From: a virus
Reading direction: 5' to 3' (one strand)
Virus record (IMG/VR): IMGVR_UViG_3300013131_000093
Coordinates: 1-41,939 of that record
DNA: 41,939 nucleotides
Shown: positions 19,089 to 31,006 of the stretch, piece after piece
Numbering within the stretch: position 1 is the stretch's first letter
How the letters are laid out: the number at the start of each line of letters is the position of its first letter
The notes under the pieces: generated by a model
The model's input: only the letters and a program-made list of their open reading frames with translations
Told to the model about the DNA's origin: nothing
Databases searched by the model: none
Program-made: the position numbers and the translations under genes

Positions 19089-19090
19089 AA

Positions 19091-20232: not shown

Positions 20233-20259
20233 ACCGATAACACTAGAAAAGGAAATAGA

Positions 20260-20571
20260 ATGACTCACAGCGAAGCGATTAGCATGGTTCATGGTAAGCG
20301 TAATGCGAAGCGACGTAAGGTTGGAAATAACACCTACGCTGAAATCCTGCATGATAATAGTGTAGGGATTATGCTTCACAGCACCTATGTTGTGAAGATT
20401 CATCCGGACGATACATACACCCTGCAAACAGGGGGATGGCAAACGGTAACGACCAAGGATAGAATCAATCAATATAGTCCGGTTCGCGTGTATCAGCGAA
20501 AGTATGAGTGGTTTGTAAAGATACACGGAAAGGAATACCCCTTTATGGAGGGGATGGTAGTGGGAGGTTGA
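20260..20571 (+). CDS. Conserved phage protein of unknown function
   Basis: 103 residues with AAAAGGAAA upstream. The block NNTYAEILHDNSVGIMLHST, then TLQTGGWQTVTTKDRINQY and PVRVYQRKYEWFV resembles a short beta-rich protein I recall from phages of unrelated hosts. Role unknown. The TGA stop opens the next four-arm element. Confidence 0.7.
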   Translation: MTHSEAISMVHGKRNAKRRKVGNNTYAEILHDNSVGIMLHSTYVVKIHPDDTYTLQTGGWQTVTTKDRINQYSPVRVYQRKYEWFVKIHGKEYPFMEGMVVGG

Positions 20572-20653
20572 CGTAAACCACGGTGCCGCAAGGATTTGCG
20601 GAAACTGTGGCCGGACTCATTTTTCATAAAGCCTTATCGTGTAAGGTTTTAGG
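20571..20653 (+). repeat. Dispersed four-arm element, copy 6
   Basis: CGTAAACCACGGTG, CGCAAGGATTTGCGG, TGTGGCCGG centre, CATAAAGCCTTATC and GTAAGGTTTTAGG. Begins at the stop codon. Confidence 0.8.
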
Positions 20654-20673
20654 ATTTTCTTCAGTTTTGGCTA

Positions 20674-20702
20674 TTGACAAGCCGATAATATCTTTGTAGA
20701 AT
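20674..20702 (+). promoter_or_regulatory. Promoter of the HU-like gene, class B
   Basis: TTGACA, 17-nt spacer containing CCGATAATA, TAGAAT. Confidence 0.85.
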
Positions 20703-20722
20703 GATCCCATAAGGAGAAAACG

Positions 20723-21016
20723 ATGCTTGCAACCAAAAGAGACATGGCCGAGCGGATCGCTGAGAAGGTTGGTGTTACTGGAGCCCAAGCCAAGGAGATT
20801 GTACAGGCAACTCTTGATGATTTGGTGTTGACTCTTGCCAGTACGGGCAGAATCGAACTGAGGAACTTTGGTGTTTTTACGGTGAAAGTTCGGGCCGCTC
20901 GTAAGGCTAGGAATCCTCGCAGTGGTGCAACCGTTATGATTGGCGAGCGTCGTACCGTTAAGTTCAAGCCAGGAAAGGCTATGGAACAGGCTGTACAGAA
21001 TCCTCTCCCCTCTTGA
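20723..21016 (+). CDS. HU/IHF-family DNA-binding protein
   Basis: 97 residues, full length for the family (about 90). N-terminal dimerising helices (TKRDMAERIAEKVGVTGAQAKEIVQATLDDLV), then GRIELRNFGVFTVKVRAARKARNPRSGATV: the GxF core and the RxxRNPxTG-type arm that inserts a proline into the minor groove, ending VKFKPGKAM. It bends and compacts DNA; in phages it can organise the genome or replace host HU. Start with AAGGAG. A CTCCCC/GGGGAG hairpin overlaps the stop codon. Confidence 0.93.
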   Translation: MLATKRDMAERIAEKVGVTGAQAKEIVQATLDDLVLTLASTGRIELRNFGVFTVKVRAARKARNPRSGATVMIGERRTVKFKPGKAMEQAVQNPLPS

Positions 21017-21026
21017 GGGGGAGCCT
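21003..21026 (+). terminator. GC hairpin at the end of the HU-like gene
   Basis: CTCCCC, short loop and GGGGGAG overlap the last codons and stop. There is no T-run, so it is more likely an mRNA 3'-end stabiliser or weak terminator. Confidence 0.4.
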
Positions 21027-21030
21027 CTAC

Positions 21031-21110
21031 ATAAATCCAATAGACACAAGGGTTTATGCTAGGTGGCTTCGGGAGCCAAAATCGTAAAGCCTTGTGTGCA
21101 TTGAACTTAG
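21031..21110 (+). repeat. Dispersed four-arm element, copy 7
   Basis: ATAAATCCAATAG, CACAAGGGTTTATG, GGCTTCGGGAGCC centre (its own small hairpin), CGTAAAGCCTTGTG and GAACTTAG, then AT7. Confidence 0.8.
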
Positions 21111-21129
21111 ATTTTTTTAAAGAATACGC

Positions 21130-21158
21130 TTGACAAATGACGATAATAGATGTAGAAT
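21130..21158 (+). promoter_or_regulatory. Promoter of the 21185 unit, class B
   Basis: TTGACA, 17 nt with ACGATAATA, TAGAAT; a T7 tract lies 12 nt upstream. Confidence 0.85.
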
Positions 21159-21184
21159 GGATCAGAAACCTATTGGAGAGTAAA

Positions 21185-21376
21185 ATGGAAACCTTGTTTG
21201 TTCCTGTTCGTCATGATGTTGTTTCTTTCGCCTATAAGGGTAAGTCCTATACCGGGGAAGTTCGTAGAGTTTATGAAAAGCCCAAGGGTCATCTGATGAT
21301 CGTGAAGATTGCGGAAGGTAAGTATCGCTCCTGCTATCTGGAAAACTGCGAAAACTTTTCATTCATTAATAAGTGA
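21185..21376 (+). CDS. Small basic beta-rich protein
   Basis: 63 residues from the ATG at 21185 (GGAGAG 4-8 nt upstream); the longer frame starting at 21137 contains the -10 box. METLFVPVRHDVVSFAYKGK, then YTGEVRRVYEKPKGHLMIVKI suggests a small SH3/WYL-like barrel. First of four genes in one unit. Function unknown. Confidence 0.65.
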   Translation: METLFVPVRHDVVSFAYKGKSYTGEVRRVYEKPKGHLMIVKIAEGKYRSCYLENCENFSFINK

Positions 21377-21382
21377 GGAAAA

Positions 21383-21601
21383 ATGTCTACAATCTCTGTC
21401 TGGTTGGCTGGGGTTTCTGTAGTTTTTCTTGTAGGAGGCTTTGCCTGTTGGGCTATTGAGTCTTGTAAGAATAACTGGAGAAATAGAATCACAGTAGAGG
21501 ATCTGGAAGAACTTGGTCGATTATTTGAGCAGGAAGGCTCTTTCATTGGTTTTAATGATCGTGGGGAAAAGTTTTTAGTTGGTTTCACAAAGGATAAATA
21601 A
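21383..21601 (+). CDS. Small single-pass membrane protein
   Basis: 72 residues. One transmembrane helix (VWLAGVSVVFLVGGFACWAI, residues 6-25), then a charged cytoplasmic or periplasmic tail. GAGGAAAA precedes the ATG. Early inner-membrane peptides of this type may act in superinfection exclusion, but nothing specific is seen. Confidence 0.65.
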   Translation: MSTISVWLAGVSVVFLVGGFACWAIESCKNNWRNRITVEDLEELGRLFEQEGSFIGFNDRGEKFLVGFTKDK

Positions 21602-21615
21602 ACAAAGGAAAAAGG

Positions 21616-21723
21616 ATGTTCGGTATTAATATAGACTGGATGTGGATGGGTGTGGGATTTATTGTGGGTATTGGTTGTTCTTGGGCTGTTTGCGATCTTG
21701 TTTTTCCGATAAAGAGGCAATAA
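21616..21723 (+). CDS. Tiny membrane peptide
   Basis: 35 residues from ATG 21616 with AAAGGAAAAAGG upstream. Hydrophobic span MWMGVGFIVGIGCSWAVCDLVF. Its stop TAA overlaps the next ATG by one base (TAATG). Confidence 0.6.
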   Translation: MFGINIDWMWMGVGFIVGIGCSWAVCDLVFPIKRQ

Positions 21724-21800
21724 TGAATCTTTACGATAAGATTATCTTGTCGAGTTCTTTTATCCTTGGCTGTGTGGTGAGCTGGATTATTAATCACTAA
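21723..21800 (+). CDS. Tiny membrane peptide
   Basis: 25 residues, coupled to the previous gene by TAATG. MNLYDKIILSSSFILGCVVS... has one hydrophobic helix. With 21383 and 21616 it makes three membrane peptides in a row. Unknown role. Confidence 0.5.
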   Translation: MNLYDKIILSSSFILGCVVSWIINH

Positions 21801-21882
21801 ACATAAGTCCTTGTCTAGCAAAGATTTGCGGCAAGGCTATGCGGCCACGAAAATCATAAACCGTTGCCAATAAAAGACTTAG
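21801..21882 (+). repeat. Dispersed four-arm element, copy 8
   Basis: CATAAGTCCTTGTC, GCAAAGATTTGCGG, GCGGCCACG centre, CATAAACCGTTGCC and AAGACTTAGG: all four arms present. Confidence 0.85.
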
Positions 21883-21911
21883 GCAAAATCCGATTTTTTC
21901 AAGAACCCCTC

Positions 21912-21939
21912 TTGCATTAGCCGATAATGACTGTATAAT
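21912..21939 (+). promoter_or_regulatory. Promoter of the 21962 gene, class B
   Basis: TTGCAT, 16 nt with CCGATAATG, TATAAT; GATTTTTTC tract upstream. Confidence 0.85.
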
Positions 21940-21961
21940 CGGTGCAACACTAGGGAGAAAA

Positions 21962-22150
21962 ATGATGAGCATCTTCGAAGATACAGATACGATCAACGCT
22001 ATCCTCTCCGATCTTGCGGAGCGTGAGATTCTTGAACCTATGGCTGAACCGATTGACGATCCCGACTGTCATCCTCTGGATTGGGCGGAAGTTGTTGGGG
22101 TTGCCGATGAGATTTTCGATGAAATCTACCCAGAATCAAACAGGAGTTGA
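21962..22150 (+). CDS. Small acidic protein
   Basis: 62 residues (MMSIFEDTDTINAILSDLAE), strongly acidic, mostly helical. GGGAGAAA upstream of the ATG. Its stop TGA is part of the TTGACA of the next promoter. No family recognised. Confidence 0.65.
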   Translation: MMSIFEDTDTINAILSDLAEREILEPMAEPIDDPDCHPLDWAEVVGVADEIFDEIYPESNRS

Positions 22151-22175
22151 CAAATAAAATGTTGAACGGTATACT
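22147..22175 (+). promoter_or_regulatory. Promoter of the 22234 gene
   Basis: TTGACA, 17 nt, TATACT, then TGTCGGATATATCGG downstream (class A-like). The -35 contains the stop codon of the 21962 gene. Confidence 0.75.
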
Positions 22176-22233
22176 CTTTATTGTCGGATATATCGGTTTG
22201 TTCTATATCGCTGTAACCTTGAAGGACTGAAAG

Positions 22234-22593
22234 ATGAGCCATCCTGACCCGTTGTATGATCCCGAAAACTCTTATGAGGATGATGATATGGACGCAAACT
22301 ATGACGATTACAATGATTTCCATGATGGCGTTGATGGTGATGATCGTACTAATGAGTATTGGCCCAACCTAACTACCGGCGGTGATGACGATGAGGATGG
22401 CTGGAATGAATTTGATAGTTGGGATGAGGATTATGATGATAGTATGGACGGCGACCATGATAGCGGTATGGCTTCTGCAGGATGGGGAACCGACGAGGAT
22501 TACGGTTATTACGGGGACGATGTAGAAGATTTTCATACAGATGAGGCTGTGGGTTTTGTAGATTACGACGAAGACGGCCCATATTACGATTGA
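22234..22593 (+). CDS. Extremely acidic protein, possible DNA mimic
   Basis: 119 residues with about 40 percent Asp/Glu and many Tyr and Gly: MSHPDPLYDPENSYEDDDMD and repeated DDYDD-type stretches. It shares the MS-x-PDPLYD start with the 58-residue 19650 product. Such extreme acidity is typical of DNA-mimic or histone/HU-binding antagonists such as anti-restriction proteins; this is inference only. AAGGA lies upstream of the ATG. Confidence 0.7.
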   Translation: MSHPDPLYDPENSYEDDDMDANYDDYNDFHDGVDGDDRTNEYWPNLTTGGDDDEDGWNEFDSWDEDYDDSMDGDHDSGMASAGWGTDEDYGYYGDDVEDFHTDEAVGFVDYDEDGPYYD

Positions 22594-22594
22594 A

Positions 22595-22675
22595 CCTAAA
22601 GCCTTATCGCACAATGGTTTGCGATTAGGCTCTCCGAGAGCATATGTCTTAAACCCTTGTGAGGCAACGCTTTAG
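22595..22675 (+). repeat. Dispersed four-arm element, copy 9
   Basis: CCTAAAGCCTTATCG, CACAATGGTTTGCG, GGCTCTCCGAGAGC centre hairpin, CTTAAACCCTTGTG and GCTTTAG. Confidence 0.8.
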
Positions 22676-22694
22676 AAAAAATAAAGATTTGCTA

Positions 22695-22722
22695 TTGCAA
22701 AAGCCGATTATAGTGGTAGGAT
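22695..22722 (+). promoter_or_regulatory. Promoter giving a predicted leaderless mRNA (22729 gene)
   Basis: TTGCAA, 16 nt with CCGATTATA, TAGGAT; only 6 nt separate the -10 from the ATG. Confidence 0.75.
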
Positions 22723-22728
22723 ACGAGT

Positions 22729-22908
22729 ATGAGCAAGCGAAACAGCAAAAAGACGATCACGATTAGCCTGAATCTAAAAAAGGTTTGGGAGGTTCCTCGC
22801 GGACATTGTGAACATATTAGTGGTACCGGTGTCCACGATAATAGGGCTAGGCGTGAGCGTACCCGTGGTACTGCTAACCGTAAGGCTTTTAGAGACTATG
22901 AGGACTGA
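22729..22908 (+). CDS. Small basic protein, predicted leaderless
   Basis: 59 residues (MSKRNSKKTITISLNLKKVW), very basic, ending RARRERTRGTANRKAFRDYED. No Shine-Dalgarno can exist because the ATG is at the expected transcription start. After its TGA the same frame continues through a copy of the 45-bp GTAGTCAGC element for another 27 codons. Likely nucleic-acid binding by composition only. Confidence 0.65.
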   Translation: MSKRNSKKTITISLNLKKVWEVPRGHCEHISGTGVHDNRARRERTRGTANRKAFRDYED

Positions 22909-22915
22909 GTCTCTG

Positions 22916-22965
22916 CTAATCCTAAAGGATTGACTAGAGTGGCTGTAGTCAGCGAGAATTTCTTG
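22916..22965 (+). repeat. GTAGTCAGC element, copy 1
   Basis: CTAATCCTAAAGGATTGA (a small AATCC/GGATT hairpin) followed by AGAGTGGCTGTAGTCAGCGA. Lies between the 22729 and 22994 genes. Confidence 0.75.
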
Positions 22966-22993
22966 TATAGACATTATCAACATAAAGGATAAA

Positions 22994-23164
22994 ATGCTAA
23001 AATCTTCTAATGTTTTGATTTCTTTGTCTGAGATCGAAGTTTGTTTGATTATTGCTGGTTTGTATACTGTAAAGGGTAAACAGGCTGATGAATCTTATAA
23101 GATTTTTGTCCAACAACTAATCGACAAGGTATCGAAGACTCAACCGGAAACATCGATTTGCTAG
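22994..23164 (+). CDS. Small unknown protein
   Basis: 56 residues from ATG 22994, AAAGGAT upstream: MLKSSNVLISLSEIEVCLII..., helical. No family recognised. No clear promoter; the GTAGTCAGC element sits directly upstream, so it may be co-transcribed with 22729. Confidence 0.55.
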   Translation: MLKSSNVLISLSEIEVCLIIAGLYTVKGKQADESYKIFVQQLIDKVSKTQPETSIC

Positions 23165-23193
23165 TTGACAAACTCTTACAAGAAAGGTAGAAT
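23165..23193 (+). promoter_or_regulatory. Promoter giving a predicted leaderless mRNA (23200 gene)
   Basis: TTGACA, 17 nt, TAGAAT, GTTGCT, ATG: exactly 6 nt between -10 and start codon. Confidence 0.8.
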
Positions 23194-23199
23194 GTTGCT

Positions 23200-23499
23200 A
23201 TGACTGGTATGACGCTTAAGGATTGGATTAACGCTTATATTCCAAAAGGAAAGACTGAGGATAATATGGTAAAAGTGGTGGTTACGCAAACTGATACGTT
23301 CTGTGGTGAGCCTAACTATGGCTGGGCTAACCGATATGAGTTTATTATTCACAAACAGGCATCTCAGCGTAATGTGGTGCGTAAGGCTAAGGCTTTGGCC
23401 GGAATGACTGGTGTTAAGGCCGATACCTACGATTATGGTGATGGTTATACTGTAAAGCCTCGTGGATATAATCAGGTTATTTTTGTGGATTTTGAATAA
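23200..23499 (+). CDS. Unknown protein, predicted leaderless
   Basis: 99 residues (MTGMTLKDWINAYIPKGKTE). Alternating beta pattern MVKVVVTQTDTFCGEPNYGW, then YEFIIHKQASQRNVVRKAKALAG and a closing YNQVIFVDFE, a compact alpha/beta domain. I recall similar short proteins in phages but no function. TAATG overlap joins it to the 23499 gene. Confidence 0.65.
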   Translation: MTGMTLKDWINAYIPKGKTEDNMVKVVVTQTDTFCGEPNYGWANRYEFIIHKQASQRNVVRKAKALAGMTGVKADTYDYGDGYTVKPRGYNQVIFVDFE

Positions 23500-23633
23500 T
23501 GAAACTTTTTAAAAAGAAAAACCCATATGAAAAAGCTAGAGAAAGAATGGAGCGTGAAACAGCTAGGGCTCTTGCTCATGTTCAGAATCTAGAAAAAATG
23601 TATCAAGAAATGAAAAAGAAGCATAAGACGTAA
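23499..23633 (+). CDS. Tiny highly charged helical protein
   Basis: 44 residues, ATG overlapping the previous TAA (TAATG). MKLFKKKNPYEKARERMERE... is one long amphipathic Lys/Glu helix. No family. Confidence 0.55.
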   Translation: MKLFKKKNPYEKARERMERETARALAHVQNLEKMYQEMKKKHKT

Positions 23634-23709
23634 CCTCTTGATAATCAAGGCTTTGCAAAAAGCCTCATCAATAGAAGAACTCATAAACCATTGTCCAGAA
23701 AGGACTTAA
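23634..23709 (+). repeat. Dispersed four-arm element, copy 10
   Basis: CCTCTTGATAAT, CAAGGCTTTGCAA, AGCCTCATC centre, CATAAACCATTGTC and AAGGACTTAAAG. Confidence 0.75.
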
Positions 23710-23739
23710 AGATTTTTGAAAAATCACTACAGAGACCCC

Positions 23740-23768
23740 TTGACAGATACCGATAAAGATAGTAGAAT
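23740..23768 (+). promoter_or_regulatory. Promoter of the 23794 gene, class B
   Basis: TTGACA, 17 nt with CCGATAAAG, TAGAAT. Confidence 0.85.
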
Positions 23769-23793
23769 ACGACAACAACAGGAAAGGAAGTTT

Positions 23794-23991
23794 ATGCTCT
23801 ACCGTTTTTATGATATTGTGGCCGAAAACGATGAAACCGAATACTCTTTGGATAAGGAATACACTCTAGATATTCCAGAACATGATATGTCTACCGCTGT
23901 TGAGCGGCAAGAATACCTCGGTAAGATGTTTGATGCTCTGATTGCTGCTACTGGTTGCAATATTTCCTCTTTTAGTTGCGACCCATCGTAA
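23794..23991 (+). CDS. Small acidic unknown protein
   Basis: 65 residues from the ATG at 23794 (GGAAG upstream; the longer frame from 23716 covers the promoter). MLYRFYDIVAENDETEYSLD then a helix and SSFSCDPS tail. Strand-turn-helix type, no family recognised. Confidence 0.6.
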   Translation: MLYRFYDIVAENDETEYSLDKEYTLDIPEHDMSTAVERQEYLGKMFDALIAATGCNISSFSCDPS

Positions 23992-24004
23992 GCAGACACC
24001 CGTT

Positions 24005-24087
24005 TTCATAAATCCTTACCAGATAAGGGTTTGTGAACTTCGGGACCGGCATAGATATGCGTAAAGCCTTGCAACGTAAGAACTTGC
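24005..24087 (+). repeat. Dispersed four-arm element, copy 11
   Basis: CATAAATCCTTACC, GATAAGGGTTTGTG, CGGGACCGG centre, GCGTAAAGCCTTGC and GTAAGAACTTG; then A7-GATTTTTT. Confidence 0.8.
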
Positions 24088-24117
24088 ATCAAAAAAAGAT
24101 TTTTTCAAGATTTGCTC

Positions 24118-24145
24118 TTGCTTTTGTCGATAATAGAGGTATACT
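24118..24145 (+). promoter_or_regulatory. Promoter of the 24176 gene, class B
   Basis: TTGCTT, 16 nt with TCGATAATA, TATACT; A/T tract upstream. Confidence 0.8.
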
Positions 24146-24175
24146 TAGAGAATACCACTCGAAGGAGATGCTAAA

Positions 24176-24439
24176 ATGAGTCCTGACGGAACCTACAACG
24201 GATATGCGAATCGTGAGACTTGGAATGTTTGTCTTTGGATTTCTAATGATGAAGGTCTGAACGAGTTTGCGGCCGTTTGCCAAAACTACAATGATTTCAA
24301 GGCTAGGCTTCGTGAAGTTGATCCCGATTCGGCTATCGCATATGAAACGCCCGACAATGTGGCTTGGAACGATAGTGCCGTGAATCTTGCAGAAATGCAG
24401 GACTATTGGGAAGAAAACTTTTCTAAGGTTTGGGGTTGA
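24176..24439 (+). CDS. Conserved phage protein with YNGxxNxETWNVxLWI motif
   Basis: 87 residues with AAGGAG upstream. The motif TYNGYANRETWNVCLWISND at residues 6-25 is the hallmark of a small protein family that recurs across phages (DUF7249-like, from memory); the remaining helices are acidic. Function unknown. The stop TGA lies within the next TTGACA. Confidence 0.75.
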   Translation: MSPDGTYNGYANRETWNVCLWISNDEGLNEFAAVCQNYNDFKARLREVDPDSAIAYETPDNVAWNDSAVNLAEMQDYWEENFSKVWG

Positions 24440-24464
24440 CAAACGACGATACAGAGTGTAAACT
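24436..24464 (+). promoter_or_regulatory. Promoter of the 24504 gene, class B
   Basis: TTGACA, 17 nt with ACGATACAG, TAAACT. A further GTGACGATAACA follows downstream, so this promoter carries the CGATA word at both positions. Confidence 0.75.
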
Positions 24465-24503
24465 GTAAGCAAGTGACGATAACAATAGAAGAAAGGGAAT
24501 GAT

Positions 24504-24908
24504 ATGAGCGATTGGATTCTGATTGGCGGTGTTTTTACGGCTGTGATGGTGTCTATTATGGCCTTTGTTGTCTATGGTGTTTATGGTGGTGTTCATGCTT
24601 CGCTGTCGAACGCGAAGAAGGGAGAGGTTTACAACTTCCTTTATGAGCAGCCACTTCATGGTGATCCTGAGAGATTTATGGCTAGAGTTCTTACTGTGAA
24701 TATTATGACTGACGAAGACATTCGCCGTCTCAATAGTAAGAGCCGTTATCGTCGTAATGATCCAGAGTTTCACCGAACTAGGCATCTTATTACCGCTCAA
24801 ACTGCGGATGGTAAGGTGAGAAACTTTTATGCGGAGCGTACTACGCAGTGCAAGCGACCCCTACTGGCTGGGGCTCTGTTCAAGGCTGGCTTGGCCCATC
24901 TTTTCTAA
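24504..24908 (+). CDS. Membrane-anchored unknown protein
   Basis: 134 residues. One N-terminal transmembrane helix (WILIGGVFTAVMVSIMAFVVY, residues 4-24), then a soluble domain EVYNFLYEQPLHGDPERFMA...VLTVNIMTDEDIRRLN...LITAQTADGKVRNFYAE that looks like a small beta-barrel. AAAGGGAA upstream. Function unknown. Confidence 0.65.
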   Translation: MSDWILIGGVFTAVMVSIMAFVVYGVYGGVHASLSNAKKGEVYNFLYEQPLHGDPERFMARVLTVNIMTDEDIRRLNSKSRYRRNDPEFHRTRHLITAQTADGKVRNFYAERTTQCKRPLLAGALFKAGLAHLF

Positions 24909-24939
24909 ACTTCCTTTCTAGGTTGTCGCGGAACCTTCG

Positions 24940-25020
24940 CTCTAAGTCCTTGTTTACCAAGGGTTTGGGGCGAAGGCCCGCGGTACAACAAGACATAAAC
25001 CCTTGAGAATCAACAAGATA
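24940..25020 (+). repeat. Dispersed four-arm element, copy 12
   Basis: CTAAGTCCTTGTTT, CCAAGGGTTTGGGG, AAGGCCCGCGG centre, CATAAACCCTTGAG and CAACAAGATAG. Confidence 0.8.
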
Positions 25021-25041
25021 GAAAAAATAAAGTTTTGACCG

Positions 25042-25069
25042 TTGACAAGTCGATAATACTTGTTAGAAT
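25042..25069 (+). promoter_or_regulatory. Promoter giving a predicted leaderless mRNA (25076 gene)
   Basis: TTGACA, 16 nt with TCGATAATA, TAGAAT, ACGTTT, ATG. Confidence 0.8.
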
Positions 25070-25075
25070 ACGTTT

Positions 25076-25237
25076 ATGAATACTACAAACTGCTACGCTT
25101 ACCCTACATACGCTTGGAAAGTTTTTAGATTTAGCCACACTTTTGTTGGTGTGATTACTGCAAGTTCGCAATATCAGGCTATCATTCTTGCAAAAGAGAA
25201 ATATGGGGATTTTGTTTGGATTGAAAGAGTTAGGTAG
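25076..25237 (+). CDS. Small unknown protein, predicted leaderless
   Basis: 53 residues: MNTTNCYAYPTYAWKVFRFS... VGVITASSQYQAIILAKEKY: strand-strand-helix layout, as in small ferredoxin-like or dsRBD-like units. It ends 2 nt before tRNA-Glu, so the tRNAs are probably in its transcript. Confidence 0.6.
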   Translation: MNTTNCYAYPTYAWKVFRFSHTFVGVITASSQYQAIILAKEKYGDFVWIERVR

Positions 25238-25239
25238 TT

Positions 25240-25312
25240 GGCCCCATCGTCTAGTGGCCTAGGACAACGGATTTTCGTTCCGTTTACCGGGGTTCGAATC
25301 CCCGTGGGGTCA
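25240..25312 (+). tRNA. tRNA-Glu (UUC)
   Basis: Full cloverleaf: acceptor GGCCCCA/TGGGGTC, anticodon stem ACGGA/TCCGT with loop TTTTCGT giving UUC, T-arm GGTTCGAATCC. CCA is not encoded. Confidence 0.95.
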
Positions 25313-25317
25313 TTTGT

Positions 25318-25390
25318 GGTCCGGTAGCCCAACGGCAGAGGCGATAGACTCAAAATCTATTTGTTGTGGGTTCGAGTCCCACCTGGACTA
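25318..25390 (+). tRNA. tRNA with anticodon CAA (Leu by code) but class I shape
   Basis: Acceptor GGTCCGG/CTGGACT with two G-U pairs, anticodon stem ATAGA/TCTAT and loop CTCAAAA, giving CAA. The variable region is about 5 nt, whereas bacterial tRNA-Leu normally has a long variable arm. T-arm GTGGGTTCGAGTCCCAC. Confidence 0.85.
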
Positions 25391-25440
25391 CCTAAACTGA
25401 TAGGATCGGCACCGTGGCGATAGTCAGTACCATCTGTGGG
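25391..25440 (+). repeat. GTAGTCAGC element, copy 2 (divergent)
   Basis: GATAGGATCGGCACCGTGGC then GATAGTCAGTACC, between tRNA-CAA and the next promoter. Confidence 0.55.
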
Positions 25441-25442
25441 TC

Positions 25443-25470
25443 TTGACAAAAAATAAATATCAGATAGAAT
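25443..25470 (+). promoter_or_regulatory. Promoter of the 25496 unit
   Basis: TTGACA, 16 nt, TAGAAT; no CGATAA word. Confidence 0.8.
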
Positions 25471-25495
25471 ACAACTAAATAGGAGAGTATTGAAT

Positions 25496-25792
25496 ATGAA
25501 ACCAGAAGATGTTATAAATGGTTTGATCGCTGCTGATGATCTTCATTGGTGCGAAGAGGAACAAAAATATATCCTATTGACAATGGATGAGGTCGATGGT
25601 ATACTGCAAGCCTGTGCTGACAACGGTATGACCGAAGAACATATGGAATATGTTATGAATGTTGTCAAGTGGTGTGAACGAGTGCGTGCTGGTCAACTGT
25701 TGTGGAAAAACTTTGTGGCTGGTCATGTATGTGTTGACGGCTTTGATGAAACTGGAGAGCCTTTCTTTGCAAAGTGTCCACCTAATGAGTGA
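25496..25792 (+). CDS. Unknown acidic protein
   Basis: 98 residues from the ATG at 25496 (GGAGAG upstream; a TTG at 25490 is an alternative). MKPEDVINGLIAADDLHWCE... helical, with several Cys and Trp. No family. Overlaps the next gene by 8 nt. Confidence 0.65.
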   Translation: MKPEDVINGLIAADDLHWCEEEQKYILLTMDEVDGILQACADNGMTEEHMEYVMNVVKWCERVRAGQLLWKNFVAGHVCVDGFDETGEPFFAKCPPNE

Positions 25793-25949
25793 TATTACTT
25801 TTAGTGAAGTTGAGCATTTGGCTAATGGAAAGCAACTAGCATTGGTTTGTCATTATCATTATGAACTGAAAAATGGTGATGGTGCGGTAGTTTACTGGTC
25901 TTATTTTTTGGAAGATATCGAAAACTTTTTGAGGACTTATCATGCCTAA
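25785..25949 (+). CDS. Small unknown protein
   Basis: 54 residues: MSDITFSEVEHLANGKQLAL, then VCHYHYELKNGDGAVVYWSYFLEDIENFLRTYH, a beta-hairpin plus helix. Overlaps both neighbours by 8 nt, suggesting coupled translation. Confidence 0.6.
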   Translation: MSDITFSEVEHLANGKQLALVCHYHYELKNGDGAVVYWSYFLEDIENFLRTYHA

Positions 25950-26439
25950 CTGGTGCTTGAACAAGTTGACCGTTTCCCATACCGACAAGGCTGCTATGGA
26001 TCGGTTTGTATCCGCATACAACAAGGGAACTCTGTGCCAAGAGTTTCTTCCTATGCCAGAAGATATTGGTGATGGTTGGTATGATTGGTGCATCAACAAC
26101 TGGGGAACAAAGTGGGATGTGGGTGCTGATGAAGGTACAGAGAAGGAAGAACGATATGGCTTGAAGGCTACTACTGTTGGAAATGAGGCTTGTTGCTCTT
26201 TTGACTCTGCTTGGGCTCCTCCCGTTGGTTTGTACGAAAAACTGGACGAGTTGGGCTATAAGATTCATGCTAGTTATTTTGAGCCGGGTATGGCTTTTTG
26301 TGGAGTGTGGGCTGACGGATTCGACAACTATATCGAGTATAAGAGTAAGGATATGATTCCTATGGGTATCTGGAATGATTTTGGATTGACAGACTTCTTT
26401 CAAGATGAGGAAGAGATCGAATCTTCAGAAAGCGTCTAA
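25942..26439 (+). CDS. Api92/YubB-like ferredoxin-fold protein (DUF1281-like)
   Basis: 165 residues. It begins MPNWCLNKLTVSHTDKAAMD and contains WCINNWGTKWDVG near residue 50-65 and AWAPPVGLYEKLDELGY, the marks of the YubB/DUF1281-type proteins found on phages and plasmids (fold ferredoxin-like; function unknown). GAGGA precedes the ATG. The C-terminus is acidic. Confidence 0.8.
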   Translation: MPNWCLNKLTVSHTDKAAMDRFVSAYNKGTLCQEFLPMPEDIGDGWYDWCINNWGTKWDVGADEGTEKEERYGLKATTVGNEACCSFDSAWAPPVGLYEKLDELGYKIHASYFEPGMAFCGVWADGFDNYIEYKSKDMIPMGIWNDFGLTDFFQDEEEIESSESV

Positions 26440-26453
26440 ATAAGCGGGTTCGC

Positions 26454-26534
26454 TCTAAATCCAAGAATATCAAGGGTTTAGGGCAAACCGGCCCGTGGAG
26501 GCTGAACGCAAACCCTTGTAGAGCATCGACTTAG
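26454..26534 (+). repeat. Dispersed four-arm element, copy 13
   Basis: CTAAATCCAAGAAT, TCAAGGGTTTAGGG, AAACCGGCCCG centre, CGCAAACCCTTGTAG and CGACTTAG. The central AAACCGGCCCG recurs in copy 21 as CAAACCGGCCCGCG. Confidence 0.85.
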
Positions 26535-26553
26535 ATTTTCTGGATTTTGTCTC

Positions 26554-26581
26554 TTGACAAGCCGATAATAGTTGATAGAAT
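26554..26581 (+). promoter_or_regulatory. Promoter of the 26601 gene, class B
   Basis: TTGACA, 16 nt with CCGATAATA, TAGAAT. Confidence 0.85.
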
Positions 26582-26600
26582 GCTGGAAAAGGAGATTCAC

Positions 26601-26855
26601 ATGCTTACGCGATATGCTCTTAGCGATAATGTTGACCGGTGGGTGAGCCATGATGGTGGCACTATCAAGTTTAGTGGCAATACCATGAGCGGCCGTCCGT
26701 TTGAAATCGTAACCTATCTTAATGATGCTAATAGGTGGGCTAACGGCGAATGTATTCAAACCTGTTTTCCTTATCTCTCGTCGGAAGAAAGGGAGATTCT
26801 GATTACTGGGCACGATGATGAATCTTGGGCTTTGCTTTTCGGAGAGGCTGAATAA
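26601..26855 (+). CDS. Small unknown protein
   Basis: 84 residues from the ATG at 26601 with AAAAGGAGA upstream. MLTRYALSDNVDRWVSHDGG, then FEIVTYLNDANRWANGECIQ and SSEEREILITGHDDE: alpha/beta, acidic. No family recognised. Confidence 0.65.
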   Translation: MLTRYALSDNVDRWVSHDGGTIKFSGNTMSGRPFEIVTYLNDANRWANGECIQTCFPYLSSEEREILITGHDDESWALLFGEAE

Positions 26856-26877
26856 AAATATTCTAAAGCAAACCCTA

Positions 26878-26905
26878 TTGACAAGCCGATAATAGAGTGT
26901 AGAAT
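26878..26905 (+). promoter_or_regulatory. Promoter of a candidate non-coding RNA, class B
   Basis: TTGACA, 16 nt with CCGATAATA, TAGAAT. No open frame with a ribosome site follows for 260 nt. Confidence 0.85.
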
Positions 26906-26911
26906 ACAAAA

Positions 26912-27100
26912 AGTAGCGGTGGAGTGCCAGAGATAACTTCATACTAAGCCGTGACAAGATAGAGAAGAAGCACTAAACTTGTCGTACTACTTCAAATATT
27001 CGTGGGTTCATGCCTGGGACTAGATAGGAATAAGCCATTACGATAAACTCGGACTGCGTAAGACGAGTTGACACTGGGCTTATACAGTGTATAGTAATGC
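26912..27100 (+). ncRNA. Candidate structured RNA 1
   Basis: From the predicted start downstream, several long-range pairings can be drawn: AGTAG/CTACT, TGACAAG/CTTGTCG, AACTCG/CGAGTT, TAGATAGG/CCTATCTA, plus CATTAC/GTAATG and ATAAGCC/GGCTTAT, which cross each other and so imply a pseudoknot or alternative fold. A second promoter (27068) lies inside the 3' part. No reading frame of note. 3' end unknown. Confidence 0.55.
27068..27095 (+). promoter_or_regulatory. Promoter of the 27170 unit
   Basis: TTGACA, 16 nt, TATAGT. The leader contains a CTATC/GATAG hairpin. Confidence 0.75.
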
Positions 27101-27169
27101 CTATCTATGAGGGATAGCGTCCTCACCACGACCAATACAACCAGTAACCGTTTTAGCAATGAGGGTATA

Positions 27170-27427
27170 ATGACCGTTAACGAACTTATTGAACAGTTGA
27201 AGAACTATCCCGGTGATACTAGGGTGCTTACTCTTGGTTATGAGGGTGGGTATCACGATATTAGGCTAGATAATAATGATATTGTGTTCGATGTTAAGCG
27301 TGGTGATGGTGCTTGGTATTATGGGCCTCATGAGTGTGTTAAATTTACTGATGAAGAAACTGGGACTCCGTGTTTGATTATTACAAGGGAAATTACTAGG
27401 GTTACTGATAAACATGGATTGGAATAA
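27170..27427 (+). CDS. Small unknown protein
   Basis: 85 residues from the ATG at 27170 (GAGGG 5 nt upstream; an earlier in-frame ATG at 27107 lies close to the predicted start and has no site). MTVNELIEQLKNYPGDTRVL, LGYEGGYHDI... The helix plus strand start is common in phage proteins that regulate or bind small ligands, but no family is assigned. Confidence 0.65.
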   Translation: MTVNELIEQLKNYPGDTRVLTLGYEGGYHDIRLDNNDIVFDVKRGDGAWYYGPHECVKFTDEETGTPCLIITREITRVTDKHGLE

Positions 27428-27683
27428 CTCTCATAAGAATCCGCCAACTGAGGGCCAGAAAGTTTATTATTTTGGAGAAAATATTGGTATAGGTATTGGA
27501 CACTATAGGTATAAAGAAAATAGTGTATACGGTATCGAACTTTGTCCACATCTATTTAAGAATGTTGATTGGGGTTTGGTAGATGCTTGTGATGCTCCTT
27601 ACTGGCTACCATACGATGAGGAGCGAGCAAAAAGTTGGTGTCCTATTATTCCAGAAAAATATACTACAGGATTATACGACTGA
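27414..27683 (+). CDS. Unknown protein, weakly DUF551-like
   Basis: 89 residues overlapping the previous gene by 14 nt. MDWNNSHKNPPTEGQKVYYF ... WLPYDEERAKSWCPIIPEKY has the W-x-x-P...V and closing W-x-P-I/L-P pattern of DUF551-type phage proteins. No Shine-Dalgarno is evident, so translation is probably coupled. Confidence 0.55.
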   Translation: MDWNNSHKNPPTEGQKVYYFGENIGIGIGHYRYKENSVYGIELCPHLFKNVDWGLVDACDAPYWLPYDEERAKSWCPIIPEKYTTGLYD

Positions 27684-27685
27684 TT

Positions 27686-27820
27686 ATGGAACTAAAAACT
27701 CTTAGTGATATTTGTCCATGTGGACTTTGTAGTGTGGCAGCATACACTCTGGATCGTAATGGTATATGGTGGTTCTATTGCGACAAATGCTATTGGTGGT
27801 ATATCGGAAACTCTTACTGA
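27686..27820 (+). CDS. Tiny putative zinc-ribbon protein
   Basis: 44 residues: MELKTLSDICPCGLCSVAAY...WWFYCDKCYWWYIGN. Two Cys knuckles (CPCGLC, CDKC) 20 residues apart. The stop lies at the start of four-arm element copy 14. Confidence 0.6.
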   Translation: MELKTLSDICPCGLCSVAAYTLDRNGIWWFYCDKCYWWYIGNSY

Positions 27821-27886
27821 TAAAGGGTTTGCGACGATCCTGCCCGAGGAGGTTATTCGTAAAACCTTGAGAATACAAGACTTAGG
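27820..27886 (+). repeat. Dispersed four-arm element, copy 14 (first arm missing)
   Basis: ATAAAGGGTTTGCG, CTGCCCGAGG centre, TCGTAAAACCTTGAG and CAAGACTTAGGG, then T6. Confidence 0.75.
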
Positions 27887-27904
27887 GTTTTTTAAAGAAT
27901 ACTC

Positions 27905-27932
27905 TTGACGATACCGATCTATACTGTATACT
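27905..27932 (+). promoter_or_regulatory. Promoter of the 27944 frame, class B-like
   Basis: TTGACG, 16 nt with CCGATCTAT, TATACT. Confidence 0.75.
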
Positions 27933-27943
27933 TAAGGGGAACA

Positions 27944-28099
27944 ATGGACGGGGATAGCCACAATGATATCAAAAGAGGCTATCTGAAATGCTGGTCGAGT
28001 ATGGCGGAAGCCGACATTGTTTTTCCTAATCCTACGGATTTGGCTAGAGTGGCTGTAGTCAGCGAAAGTTTAAAGGTCTTGACAAGTACTGGTCGATAA
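27944..28099 (+). CDS. Small frame containing a GTAGTCAGC element
   Basis: 51 codons from ATG 27944 with AAGGGGA 4 nt upstream and a promoter at the right distance: MDGDSHNDIKRGYLKCWSSM. The C-terminal part is translated from the repeated element (NPTDLARVAVVSE) and the stop lies inside the next promoter. It could be a real small protein, a leader peptide, or chance coding across a regulatory element. Confidence 0.4.
   Translation: MDGDSHNDIKRGYLKCWSSMAEADIVFPNPTDLARVAVVSESLKVLTSTGR
28021..28068 (+). repeat. GTAGTCAGC element, copy 3
   Basis: CCTAATCCTACGGATTTGGC then TAGAGTGGCTGTAGTCAGCG; 11 nt before the next -35. Confidence 0.75.
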
Positions 28100-28107
28100 G
28101 GTATACT
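28079..28107 (+). promoter_or_regulatory. Promoter giving a predicted leaderless mRNA (28114 gene)
   Basis: TTGACA, 17 nt with TCGATAAGG, TATACT, AGCAAC, ATG. Confidence 0.8.
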
Positions 28108-28113
28108 AGCAAC

Positions 28114-28596
28114 ATGAAACAGAACCAACTACATGGCGAAGTAAGGTTTCATCTTGGTGGTGGGGCTCATTATATGCACTGGCAAGTGCGAATCAAGCAG
28201 GGCGGTAAAACTGTTGACGTGTATTATTACGACCCTAATGAATATCAGTTGGAAATGAGGGGCTGTAGGCTGCGTAATCGTCCTAATAAAGCCAAGCAAG
28301 TTTTTGAGGCTGGTGTGCATGATGTGAGCGGGTGGATTCGGTGTGAAGAAACCATGCTTCGCAAAAGTTTTTATCCGGTTTTGCCTGTTGACAATCTTGA
28401 AAAGTTGTATTATAATCCGCTTCGTGATCCACACTGGCGTCGTGAAAGTGATAACAATGAGTTTATCTGGGATGAAACACAATACGCTACACTGATTACA
28501 AGTGGCAAGCAAGTTTATATTCTAGAAGAACGAGATTGTGCATTTGACAATATTAGAGAAATAGACCCAAAGTATTTAGAAGGATTTAATGTATGA
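28114..28596 (+). CDS. Conserved phage-type protein, unknown function, predicted leaderless
   Basis: 160 residues (MKQNQLHGEVRFHLGGGAHY). RFHLGGGAHYMHWQV, VDVYYYDPNEYQLEMRGCRL and QVFEAGVHDVSGWIRCEE resemble a phage protein family I have seen in several phage groups without a function. Ends overlapping the next gene by 4 nt (ATGA). Confidence 0.65.
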   Translation: MKQNQLHGEVRFHLGGGAHYMHWQVRIKQGGKTVDVYYYDPNEYQLEMRGCRLRNRPNKAKQVFEAGVHDVSGWIRCEETMLRKSFYPVLPVDNLEKLYYNPLRDPHWRRESDNNEFIWDETQYATLITSGKQVYILEERDCAFDNIREIDPKYLEGFNV

Positions 28597-28961
28597 TTAG
28601 TATTCAGGTGACGATTGCCGAGGCTATTGCTATTGCTAACACGGCGGGTAACGATCTGCATGATCGTATCGTGAAGGTTATTGAGGTGGCTCTTGGCGTC
28701 AACCAGAGTCGTGATGTGACCATCACCAAGATGCCGGGAGACAATCGTCTCGCTTGTATCAAGAGTATTCGTTTGCACTCTGGCTGGAGTTTGAAAGAGG
28801 CCAAGGAATGGACGGATACTCTGGTGGGGCGATACGACAGCACTTATGGTAAGTGGATTAACGGCGCTAGTAAGAGTACTATCAAGTTGCCTACTCCCGA
28901 TGCAGCCGAGACTCTGTTGCGTGAACTGACCACTTTGGGCTGCGAGGGATACCTCTCTTAA
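28593..28961 (+). CDS. Ribosomal L7/L12 C-terminal-domain-like protein
   Basis: 122 residues. Residues 52-120 have the pattern of the bL12 C-terminal/ClpS-like fold: IKSIRLHSGWSLKEAKEWTD (56-75, as in IKxVRxxTGLGLKEAK) and a final AETLLRELTTLGCEGYL. The N-terminal 50 residues are not the L12 stalk-binding domain. Host bL12 C-termini recruit translation factors, so a free phage copy could compete for or recruit them (inference). Coupled by ATGA to the previous gene. Confidence 0.7.
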   Translation: MISIQVTIAEAIAIANTAGNDLHDRIVKVIEVALGVNQSRDVTITKMPGDNRLACIKSIRLHSGWSLKEAKEWTDTLVGRYDSTYGKWINGASKSTIKLPTPDAAETLLRELTTLGCEGYLS

Positions 28962-29043
28962 ACTAAAGCCTTGCTGCGTAAAGCTTTACGCCAAGGCGAG
29001 ACGGCGACAGAAAACGCAAACCCTTGATACTGCTAAACTTAGG
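28962..29043 (+). repeat. Dispersed four-arm element, copy 15
   Basis: CTAAAGCCTTGCTG, CGTAAAGCTTTACGCC, AAGGCGAGACGGCG centre, CGCAAACCCTTGAT and AAACTTAGG. Confidence 0.8.
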
Positions 29044-29073
29044 AAAAATCAAAGAAAGATTCAATGTAGAGGG

Positions 29074-29101
29074 TTGACAATGACGATAACCATGATATAC
29101 T
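29074..29101 (+). promoter_or_regulatory. Upstream promoter of the 29232 gene, class B
   Basis: TTGACA, 16 nt with ACGATAACC, TATACT; about 85 nt before a second promoter. The segment between has no frame. Confidence 0.8.
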
Positions 29102-29160
29102 GATAGCATCACACGACAAGACGCTAGTTGAGAGCAACCAACAAAGTTTCAACTTAGCAC

Positions 29161-29188
29161 TTGACAGGTGATGTTGACGATGTATAAT
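29161..29188 (+). promoter_or_regulatory. Downstream promoter of the 29232 gene
   Basis: TTGACA, 16 nt, TATAAT; ACGATG just before the -10. Confidence 0.85.
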
Positions 29189-29231
29189 ACGTTTACTTGG
29201 TTTGATAACACTTTTGAGAAAGGTTTTTACA

Positions 29232-29483
29232 ATGAAGAAGTTTTCTTTTGCGGTTGATGTTGTTGGTGATGATGTTGATTCGTCGGCTGTTGTTGATGCT
29301 CTGCGTAAGACGCTTACAAGCGAACTCTCCGACGAGGTGTTTGCTAATGTCAAGCCCGCTGGTGTCAAGGCTTTCAGCGAGCAGGGTTATAAGGTGTGGC
29401 GTGCCCGCGTCACTGGTGTGACTGCCGAGCAGGCCGGTGATGCTCACGATGGCAAGATCGCCAAGGAGGAGGCTACTGCCTGA
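29232..29483 (+). CDS. Small unknown protein
   Basis: 83 residues from the ATG at 29232 (AAAGG about 10 nt upstream): MKKFSFAVDVVGDDVDSSAV, then a helix and WRARVTGVTAEQAGDAHDGK. Strand-helix-strand, Asp-rich start. Codons are GC- and C-richer than the neighbours. Two tandem promoters suggest strong expression. Confidence 0.65.
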   Translation: MKKFSFAVDVVGDDVDSSAVVDALRKTLTSELSDEVFANVKPAGVKAFSEQGYKVWRARVTGVTAEQAGDAHDGKIAKEEATA

Positions 29484-29484
29484 C

Positions 29485-29512
29485 TTGACAAACTGGACTG
29501 TGCCAGTATAAA
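29485..29512 (+). promoter_or_regulatory. Promoter of candidate structured RNA 2
   Basis: TTGACA, 16 nt, TATAAA, starting at the stop codon of the 29232 gene. Confidence 0.8.
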
Positions 29513-29518
29513 TAGGTT

Positions 29519-29709
29519 TTAGGCACAGTGCGGCGGGATAACTTCCCGCGTAATATGCCGGGGATTCAACCGGCCTAGCAGAGTCTAACCAACTAATAAC
29601 CAGCGTGGTTGCTGGGAAGGGGTCTGCTGCTAGTAATATAGCGATGGTAAAGTGATCCCACCATCTAACCGTATAGCCCGCACGGGACGCCGTGACGGGC
29701 TTTCGGCAA
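29519..29709 (+). ncRNA. Candidate structured RNA 2, upstream of tRNA-Arg
   Basis: About 190 nt without a frame and much more GC-rich than its surroundings, packed with clear helices in order: GCGGGA/TCCCGC; GCCGG/CCGGC; CTAGCAGA paired with TCTGCTGCTAG enclosing CCAGC/GCTGG; GATGG/CCATC; and AGCCCGCACGG/CCGTGACGGGCT. It has its own promoter and ends just before tRNA-Arg, so the tRNA-processing machinery may make its 3' end. It does not match RNase P RNA, tmRNA or 6S RNA as I know them. Confidence 0.7.
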
Positions 29710-29713
29710 TAGA

Positions 29714-29785
29714 GGCCCCATAGTTAAATGGATATAACAAGTGCCTTCTAAGCACTGGTTAGAGGTTCGATTCCTCTTGGGGCTA
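29714..29785 (+). tRNA. tRNA-Arg (UCU)
   Basis: Acceptor GGCCCCA/TGGGGCT, anticodon stem AGTGC/GCACT with loop CTTCTAA, giving UCU, and T-arm GAGGTTCGATTCCTC. Decodes AGA. Confidence 0.95.
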
Positions 29786-29789
29786 TTTC

Positions 29790-29872
29790 TCTAAAGCATT
29801 GAAGCGTAAGGCTTTGCGAATATTGTGGGCGGAGGCGAAAATCATAAACCTTTGTGATTCAAGGATTTACGC
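29790..29872 (+). repeat. Dispersed four-arm element, copy 16
   Basis: CTAAAGCATTGAAG, CGTAAGGCTTTGCG, TGTGGGCGG centre, CATAAACCTTTGTG and CAAGGATTTACGC. Confidence 0.85.
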
Positions 29873-29899
29873 ATAAAATCTTTTCTTCAAGAATAGGGC

Positions 29900-29928
29900 T
29901 TGACTGTACCGATAATCTAGTGTAGAAT
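29900..29928 (+). promoter_or_regulatory. Promoter of the 29953 gene, class B
   Basis: TTGACT, 17 nt with CCGATAATC, TAGAAT. Confidence 0.85.
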
Positions 29929-29952
29929 CGAGAGACACGCTAGGAGAAAGTG

Positions 29953-30663
29953 ATGAAAACTGCAAACGGTAATGACAAGTTAGGTAAGGAAAACTGTATC
30001 GTCGTGTCTCGTCCCGTTGGCGATACTTGTCCACCAGACTGTGATTTTTTGGGTAATGGTTGCTATGCCGAGGACTTGGAAAATATCTATCCCGGTGTGC
30101 GTCCTGCTGGTATGCAGAATCTTATCACGGAAAAAAACCGTATCCGTTCGATGTTGGTCGATGCTGTCAAGAAAAATAAAGATGTTCGCTGGCATGAACG
30201 CGGCGACTTTTTCAAGGACGGTCAACTCGACAATGAATATGTCGATAATGTATTGTGGGCTTGTGAGAGTATCGTGGCCGATGGCGGTAGTCTGCCAACA
30301 ATGTGGGCATATACTCATATTTATGATACTAGACTGTCTACTGAACTTGGTAAGTATATAAATATGTATGCTAGTATCCATGATGGCGAAGATATGAAAC
30401 AGGCAAAGGCCGCTGGTTTTAGGCATTTTGCGTGGTGCGATAGTGATACTAAGATTGCCCCTAAGCGTCCGCGTAGTAAGGCTAAAGCCGACGCATGGCG
30501 AGCAGCATTACCGAAACTGGTTGTCTTAGAGGGGGTAAAGTTTATCACTTGCCCGGAAATCCGTCGTGGTCGTGGTGTCGTCACTTGCACGAAAACTAAA
30601 AATAGCGTACACTGTGATTTGTGTCCGCGTGGCTTGGCTAATGTTTTGTTTCCCTCCCACTGA
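29953..30663 (+). CDS. Cysteine-cluster phage protein (GP88/DUF7227-like)
   Basis: 236 residues from ATG 29953 (AGGAGAAA upstream; a GTG at 29950 is equally placed). Early IVVSRPVGDTCPPDCDF...GCYAED gives a C-x3-C-x6-C cluster. WHERGDFFKDG and TMWAYTHIYDTRL follow, with late Cys positions in FITCPEI and HCDLCPRGL. I recall this arrangement from phage proteins of unknown function that may bind a metal or Fe-S cluster. Biochemical role unknown. Confidence 0.7.
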   Translation: MKTANGNDKLGKENCIVVSRPVGDTCPPDCDFLGNGCYAEDLENIYPGVRPAGMQNLITEKNRIRSMLVDAVKKNKDVRWHERGDFFKDGQLDNEYVDNVLWACESIVADGGSLPTMWAYTHIYDTRLSTELGKYINMYASIHDGEDMKQAKAAGFRHFAWCDSDTKIAPKRPRSKAKADAWRAALPKLVVLEGVKFITCPEIRRGRGVVTCTKTKNSVHCDLCPRGLANVLFPSH

Positions 30664-30670
30664 GGATAAG

Positions 30671-30907
30671 ATGAAAAGTTTTACATATGAGTGCGTTACT
30701 CTTGAAGATATTTGTAAGCATAATCATTTGAATCATGCCGAAATAATGGATGCTGTTTCTAATAGTGATGTATCTTTTGGTACTAATGCTGACACTCTAA
30801 TGACTAGAAGTATGTTACAGGACATTGTGGACGATTGGTTTGATAATCCTACACAGTTAGATTGGTGCGGCTACGATGATCGTATCCTCATTAGTCTAGG
30901 AAGTTGA
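30671..30907 (+). CDS. Small acidic protein
   Basis: 78 residues from ATG 30671 with GAGGA upstream. MKSFTYECVTLEDICKHNHL, DAVSNSDVSFGTNADTLMTR: a helix-turn-helix-like first half and an acidic second half. Follows the 29953 gene by 7 nt in the same unit. Confidence 0.65.
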   Translation: MKSFTYECVTLEDICKHNHLNHAEIMDAVSNSDVSFGTNADTLMTRSMLQDIVDDWFDNPTQLDWCGYDDRILISLGS

Positions 30908-30908
30908 T

Positions 30909-30989
30909 CTAAAGCCTTAATACGCAAGGGTTTGCGTCAAGGCGACACGTCAAGAAAAGACATAAACCATTGATACGTAACGACTTAAG
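30909..30989 (+). repeat. Dispersed four-arm element, copy 17
   Basis: CTAAAGCCTTAATA, CGCAAGGGTTTGCG, AAGGCGACACG centre, CATAAACCATTGAT and CGACTTAAG. Confidence 0.85.
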
Positions 30990-31006
30990 ATTCTAAAGAA
31001 TCAGCA

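Follow-up and report, generated by a model that had tools for sequence, protein, structure and literature searches.

Conserved six-nucleotide spacing between -10 boxes and start codons points to predicted leaderless genes in a group of uncultivated tailed phages

The mRNA of the lambda cI gene is leaderless, and this phage gene is translated from a 5'-terminal AUG. Lambda has been named as the first leaderless case, and leaderless genes marked by a TANNNT motif account for more than 20% of the genes in Actinobacteria and Deinococcus-Thermus (PMC3160421); such TA-led leaderless genes have been tested in Deinococcus radiodurans (PMC12340547). In the Thermus phage phiYS40, most of the middle and late transcripts are described as leaderless (review PMC3594737). 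Moreover, virus-encoded forms of the ribosomal protein bL12 have been found in seven cultivated phage genomes of less than 80 kb, which infect proteobacteria (PMC6375957).

The stretch of DNA analysed here as a whole, referred to as the window, is a 41,939-bp record and represents a fragment of an uncultivated tailed phage. The terminase and capsid genes lie on the minus strand in its left part, while from about 16.9 kb onwards the plus strand is occupied by numerous small genes, 12 tRNAs, and densely arrayed sigma70-like promoters. In IMG/VR, at least 595 relatives of the capsid protein are recorded, the longest related contigs reach 244 kb, and several of the IMG/VR identifiers presumably stand for samples of freshwater type. 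A search for a close cultivated relative of the phage found none, and the known-phage relatives of its terminase and capsid are remote only. The capsid also has matches in six MAGs, labelled Flavobacteriales (two), Chitinophagia, Alphaproteobacteria, SAR202, and Omnitrophota; these labels are mutually incompatible and probably reflect binning noise, and a host assignment based on them was rejected. Gene 28114 has no relative in the bacterial genomes searched and gives no host clue.

Four genes of the plus strand start directly behind a promoter, as follows.

22695..22722, plus strand: promoter TTGCAA-16-TAGGAT, with the -35 box at 22695-22700 and the -10 box at 22717-22722, 6 nt before ATG 22729
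22729..22908, plus strand: gene 22729, small basic protein of 59 aa, predicted leaderless, paralogue of the ORF at 32275
23165..23193, plus strand: promoter TTGACA-17-TAGAAT, with the -10 box at 23188-23193, 6 nt before ATG 23200
23200..23499, plus strand: gene 23200, 99-aa protein, predicted leaderless long form, the weakest of the four cases
23257..23268, plus strand: alternative in-frame Shine-Dalgarno-led start, GAGGA-4-ATG 23266, where most relatives start
25042..25069, plus strand: promoter TTGACA-16-TAGAAT, with the -10 box at 25064-25069, 6 nt before ATG 25076
25076..25237, plus strand: gene 25076, 53-aa protein, predicted leaderless, upstream of tRNA-Glu and tRNA-Leu
28079..28107, plus strand: promoter TTGACA-17-TATACT, with the -35 box from 28079 and the -10 box at 28102-28107, 6 nt before ATG 28114
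28114..28596, plus strand: gene 28114, 160-aa orphan protein, predicted leaderless, first of a two-gene unit

Direct reading of the sequence places all four -10 boxes exactly 6 nt from the ATG, as a preliminary description of this DNA had reported, and confirms each box, start codon, and gap. The -35 box is a perfect TTGACA in three of the four cases, with spacers of 16-17 nt throughout; the TTGCAA of gene 22729 is a poor -35 box. The other promoters of the region are followed by leaders of about 20-45 nt with purine-rich AAGGA or GGAG sites, in agreement with the normal leaders ascribed to neighbouring genes in the same description. The predicted transcripts of the four genes have no leader, and hence no Shine-Dalgarno sequence, although gene 23200 also has the internal Shine-Dalgarno-led start. 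As in TA-led genes, the -10 box of each would set the start of transcription no more than 1-2 nt from the start codon. The window has roughly 40 strong plus-strand promoters, among which about 0.1 such cases would be expected; it contains three, in addition to gene 22729 with its weaker -35 box. The spacing is conserved among relatives for genes 28114, 25076, and 22729.

The distance between promoter and start codon was counted for the sigma70-like promoters of the window and of 172 fetched loci of relatives (1608 promoters after near-identical ones were collapsed), considering only ATGs that begin a reading frame of 45 aa or longer. Frame-opening ATGs number 78 at 6 nt, 4 at 5 nt, and 14 at 7 nt, with a mean of 5.2 at 14 background distances, and the counted contexts stem from related phages and do not represent independent events; a first version of the count had given 74, 3, and 11, respectively. 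Distances of 8-17 nt are nearly empty and leadered genes set in from 18 nt, so that the exact 6-nt spacing, kept in dozens of related viruses, stands apart from them. The peak is specific to ATG, since GTG and TTG show none at 6 nt in the same promoter scan. Three pairs of scrambled hexamers used as controls gave 1, 0, and 0 cases at this distance, while a fourth, TGTCAA/TATTAT, gave 26 and was set aside because TGTCAA matches a TTGACAA shifted by one base and therefore finds the real promoters again. A 6-nt spacing occurs in at least one member of 26 gene families, 17 of them with at least three members, compared with 12 families at 7 nt and 1-3 at 2-5 nt; the figure of 26 is an upper estimate because some families, such as the 24504-type and MKKFSF families, have an inner Shine-Dalgarno-led ATG. 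Chance spacing is rejected by the distance distribution and the hexamer controls, and the earlier statement that the spacing is unlikely to arise by chance holds among the promoters of the relatives, with 78 cases at 6 nt against about 5 per background distance.

The position of the ATG coincides with a signature of the leadered promoters. If bases are numbered from 0 immediately after the -10 box, 79% of 732 leadered promoters have A at position 6 and 62% have C or T at position 5, which corresponds to the +1 A preceded by a pyrimidine at -1 that is expected of a transcription start; in the leaderless set, C or T occupies position 5 in 98% of cases, and position 6 is taken by the A of the ATG. 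Since the leadered promoters show A at offset 6, the A of the ATG falls on the predicted start of transcription. The same preference for A at this place could also be read as an effect of chance and promoter composition, in which A is favoured at +1, ATGs arise there accidentally, and the real starts lie downstream, as the inner Shine-Dalgarno-led ATGs of some families (23266 in gene 23200, the 24504-type family) would suggest. Chance ATGs are indeed commoner at distance 6 because A is favoured there, and the share of ATGs that open a frame is therefore the better measure: it reaches 75% at distance 6 against 21% at background distances. Moreover, relatives of genes 28114 and 25076 use the same start codon with a Shine-Dalgarno sequence. 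As an account of the whole, composition has a very low probability; it is largely refuted for genes 22729, 25076, and 28114, and it is likely for part of the gene 23200 product.

For gene 28114, 56 distinct upstream contexts were compared: the promoter lies at exactly 6 nt in 31 of them and at 7 nt in one, while 18 lack an adjacent promoter but carry a Shine-Dalgarno sequence at the same start codon (as in loci L062-L070, with GGGAGAGGTAA-ATG). The 6-mer between the -10 box and the ATG occurs as 18 different sequences, therefore its length is kept and its sequence is not. The protein itself has no match in Pfam and no fold match in the PDB. At gene 25076, the distance is 6 nt in 24 of 60 contexts and 7 nt in one, and the other 35 are Shine-Dalgarno-led with a longer leader, such as TATAAT-GCGACT-AAGGAG-AAAGTTT-ATG. 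This alternation between the two types of start is observed directly at the loci, as are the anatomy of the starts, the conserved length, and the start-site signature.

The relatives of gene 22729 were recovered by a profile search of the fetched loci, as the pattern scan returned only its own contig. The TAGGAT box and the 6 nt are kept in two of them (L028, L042), the distance is 7 nt in four (L165, L053, L157, L094) and 9 nt in L091, and L007 carries an ATGATG at 6 and 9 nt; orthologues with an adjacent promoter are thus mostly at 6 or 7 nt, with one possible 9. The related 32275-type ORFs of four loci (L094, L040, L011, L048) have their own promoters, also at 6 nt.

Gene 23200 behaves differently. 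Its case is weak because a Shine-Dalgarno sequence leads the start in 45 of 47 relatives, usually at the codon corresponding to 23266, and because, among the loci that share its 22-residue N-terminal extension (L121, L122, L124-L127, L130, L131), the closest version (L121) has a normal leader with AAAGGA before the start. A leaderless long form may be made from 23200, though it is no more likely than a Shine-Dalgarno-led short form from 23266.

A further reading accepts the promoters as real but has the 6-nt ATGs mostly translated from longer read-through mRNAs, through a weak AAGG or translational coupling. The genes do run head to tail on one strand, the relatives placed in operons are Shine-Dalgarno-led, and an AAGG within GATAAGGTATACT, inside the promoter of gene 28114 and 13-16 nt before its ATG, could serve as a weak, badly spaced Shine-Dalgarno sequence on such an mRNA. 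This reading leaves unexplained why start codons cluster at 6 nt, with few at 7 nt and almost none at 8-17 nt, and why the ATG matches the +1 A of the leadered promoters; it is considered improbable. Conversely, a compact fusion of promoter and start codon, with leaderless and Shine-Dalgarno starts as two interchangeable modes, is very probably the best explanation of the whole, and the leaderless state of genes 22729, 25076, and 28114 is well supported by the comparison of sequences.

The actual 5' ends, and translation from them, are what we infer. A host RNA polymerase of the sigma70 type would recognise TTGACA-16/17-TANNNT and initiate transcription 7 nt after the -10 box, on an A that follows a pyrimidine; if an ATG lies exactly there, its A would be the first base of the mRNA, and ribosomes would start on the 5'-terminal AUG without a Shine-Dalgarno sequence. 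Genes 22729, 25076, and 28114 would be made leaderless in this way, the last heading a unit with a gene for a protein similar to the C-terminal domain (CTD) of bL12, while gene 23200 would have a possible leaderless long form beside the Shine-Dalgarno-led short form. In relatives, the same genes would alternate between the fusion and a normal Shine-Dalgarno leader. The placement of the transcription start at or next to the ATG in the preliminary description can accordingly be kept as a prediction for three genes, on the basis of the 6-mer of fixed length and variable sequence, the +1 A signature, the trough at 8-17 nt, and the Shine-Dalgarno-led orthologues at the same codon, and is doubtful for gene 23200.

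Most genes of the phage depend on Shine-Dalgarno leaders, and only a minority are leaderless. Specifically, 79% of the starts located 18-30 nt behind a promoter have a Shine-Dalgarno sequence of at least 4 nt, and the relatives contain 0-5 strict leaderless matches per contig overall, most of their promoters being Shine-Dalgarno-leadered. Apparent Shine-Dalgarno sequences are also present at 42% of the 6-nt starts; they were rejected as real sites, being at least largely an AAGG inside the promoter, upstream of the predicted start of transcription. Ordinary ribosomes translate mRNAs that begin with a 5'-AUG. As leaderless genes are few and the phage is mainly Shine-Dalgarno-led, an adapted ribosome is not required, and the earlier proposal of a host or phage-modified ribosome particularly adept at leaderless mRNAs is not needed. 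A gene for IF3, considered as a phage-encoded part of a leaderless programme, is absent from 20 relative contigs, which speaks against the same proposal.

The gene following gene 28114 makes a link to the ribosome possible.

28593..28961, plus strand: bL12 C-terminal-domain-like protein, overlapping the 3' end of gene 28114

This gene is next after gene 28114 in 90 of 94 relatives and is present in all 20 large relative contigs tested (up to 244 kb), a constant position downstream of a leaderless gene in large phages for which no earlier description was found in the literature consulted. Its product resembles the C-terminal domain of bL12 in both sequence and fold. It matches Pfam PF00542 at 1.6e-4, below the cut-off, and a profile search with it against the PDB retrieves bL12 chains at 8e-8; a Foldseek search with its AlphaFold model (pLDDT 84) places L7/L12 on top with a probability of 1.00, followed by ClpS, which shares the fold. 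In bL12 itself, an N-terminal dimerisation domain binds uL10; two N-terminal helices are predicted in the model here, and superposition on L7/L12 over the whole length is poor (TM 0.43-0.45, rmsd 9.9-16.9).

The constancy of this neighbour would fit a system specialised for leaderless translation, in which the phage alters the ribosome, by the bL12-like protein or by control of the host IF2 or IF3, and thereby gives preference to leaderless mRNAs during one stage of infection. In addition, phage bL12 is able to enter ribosomes (PMC6375957), and phiYS40 is reported to raise IF2 and lower IF3 (PMC3594737). Such a system is regarded as quite improbable here: most genes are Shine-Dalgarno-led, the 20 contigs lack IF3, and the bL12-like gene also lies behind versions of gene 28114 that are not leaderless. 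A more specific proposal, that the two genes form a translation-takeover unit, has a very low probability; in it, the leaderless start would allow synthesis while Shine-Dalgarno initiation is altered, and the bL12-like product would then change the ribosome stalk in favour of 5'-AUG starts or phage mRNAs, with positive feedback. The interchange of leaderless and Shine-Dalgarno starts as two modes of the same genes is the reading retained.

These loci provide comparative, sequence-only evidence for leaderless genes in a large, common group of uncultivated phages. The natural pairs of leaderless and Shine-Dalgarno versions of the same gene could reveal what drives the switch of mode, and leaderless starts may be misplaced by gene finders that depend on recognising a ribosome-binding site.

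Compared with the TA-led genes (PMC3160421, PMC12340547), the genes described here share a -10 box placed directly before the ATG, the absence of a Shine-Dalgarno sequence, the need for a specific distance, and the switching of related genomes between two modes, whereas they differ in belonging to a phage, in having full TTGACA -35 boxes with spacers of 16-17 nt, and in being a minority of the genes. A strict-pattern scan of known phages gave six matches in phiYS40, taken as a positive control, one in T5, and none in T4, SPO1, or P23-45, and the pattern is not a sensitive detector because the last of these, a Thermus phage, gave no strict match. As in phiYS40, phage genes follow TTGACA...TANNNT-6-ATG; in contrast to the majority of middle and late transcripts in that phage, the strict matches here are 0-5 per contig, and no sequence relation to it was seen. 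Unlike lambda, a temperate phage in which one repressor gene is concerned, several unrelated small genes are involved here. As in the phages with virus-encoded bL12 (PMC6375957), a bL12 C-terminal-domain-like protein is phage-coded, but here it occurs in all 20 large contigs and is fixed behind one orphan, often leaderless gene. Leaderless genes of this kind are already known from lambda, phiYS40, and the TA-led systems, while the phage clade and the bL12 partner appear to be new.

Between 16900 and 35000 the window has some 38 strong sigma70-like promoters, almost all of which point along the plus strand; many carry a perfect TTGACA, and each has one or a few small genes behind it. Counted on both strands from 16500 to 36400, such promoter matches number 89 vs 42.5 in shuffled sequence. 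Further features of the window and of related loci:

17360-17440, 19850-19940, 21804-21930, 22594-22700, 23630-23740, 24940-25040, 30950-31010: recurring intergenic cassette
22900-22960, 28010-28070, 33910-33965, 36175-36230, 39250-39300: copies of an intergenic element of ~46 nt
22946, 28056, 33953, 36215, 39290: TAGTCAGC within these copies
14152-16439: full-length phage GlmS, then a putative GNAT-type acetyltransferase
28593-28961: phage-encoded bL12 C-terminal-domain-like protein
29492-29555 (+): pistol self-cleaving ribozyme (RF02679, 56.5 bits)
L007 11396-11458, L017 11403-11465, L022 11407-11469: pistol ribozyme in related loci

The cassette, AAGCCTTG...CAAGGnTTTGCG...AAACCCTTG..., sits upstream of many promoters and, judged by eye, forms hairpins; it is perhaps a terminator or processing signal. 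The ~46-nt element (consensus GTCTCACCTAATCCTNCGGATTTGGCGNNNNTGGCGATAGTCAGCGAGA) recurs in the window, and relatives carry 3-8 copies of it per 20 kb; in 255 of 261 distinct contexts it has coding-strand orientation. Its parts include an AATCC/GGATT hairpin and, at a distance of 9 nt from each other, the two copies of a variable direct repeat; the letters of these copies covary, the paired letters being equal in 72/78 cases at -13/-4 (46 expected), 65/78 at -12/-3 (24 expected) and 53/78 at -11/-2 (26 expected). An Rfam search with the element gave no match; a role in RNA processing or in regulation is possible.

The pistol ribozyme, flanked in the window by a small gene and a tRNA-Arg, is kept in relatives ~900 nt downstream of the orphan gene at 28114, and the bL12-like gene occurs in all 20 of the 20 large relative contigs tested. 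The phage GlmS shares 43% identity with GlmS of bacteria or phage bins.

Capsid relatives with 42-83% identity (L263-L268) lie inside metagenome-assembled genomes; the mutually conflicting labels of these genomes (Flavobacteriales, Chitinophagia, Alphaproteobacteria, SAR202, Omnitrophota) are probably binning noise.

In L118, a more distant phage contig, several genes on both strands start 6 or 7 nt behind TTGACA...TANNNT, and leaderless genes are perhaps richer there than in the clade of the window.
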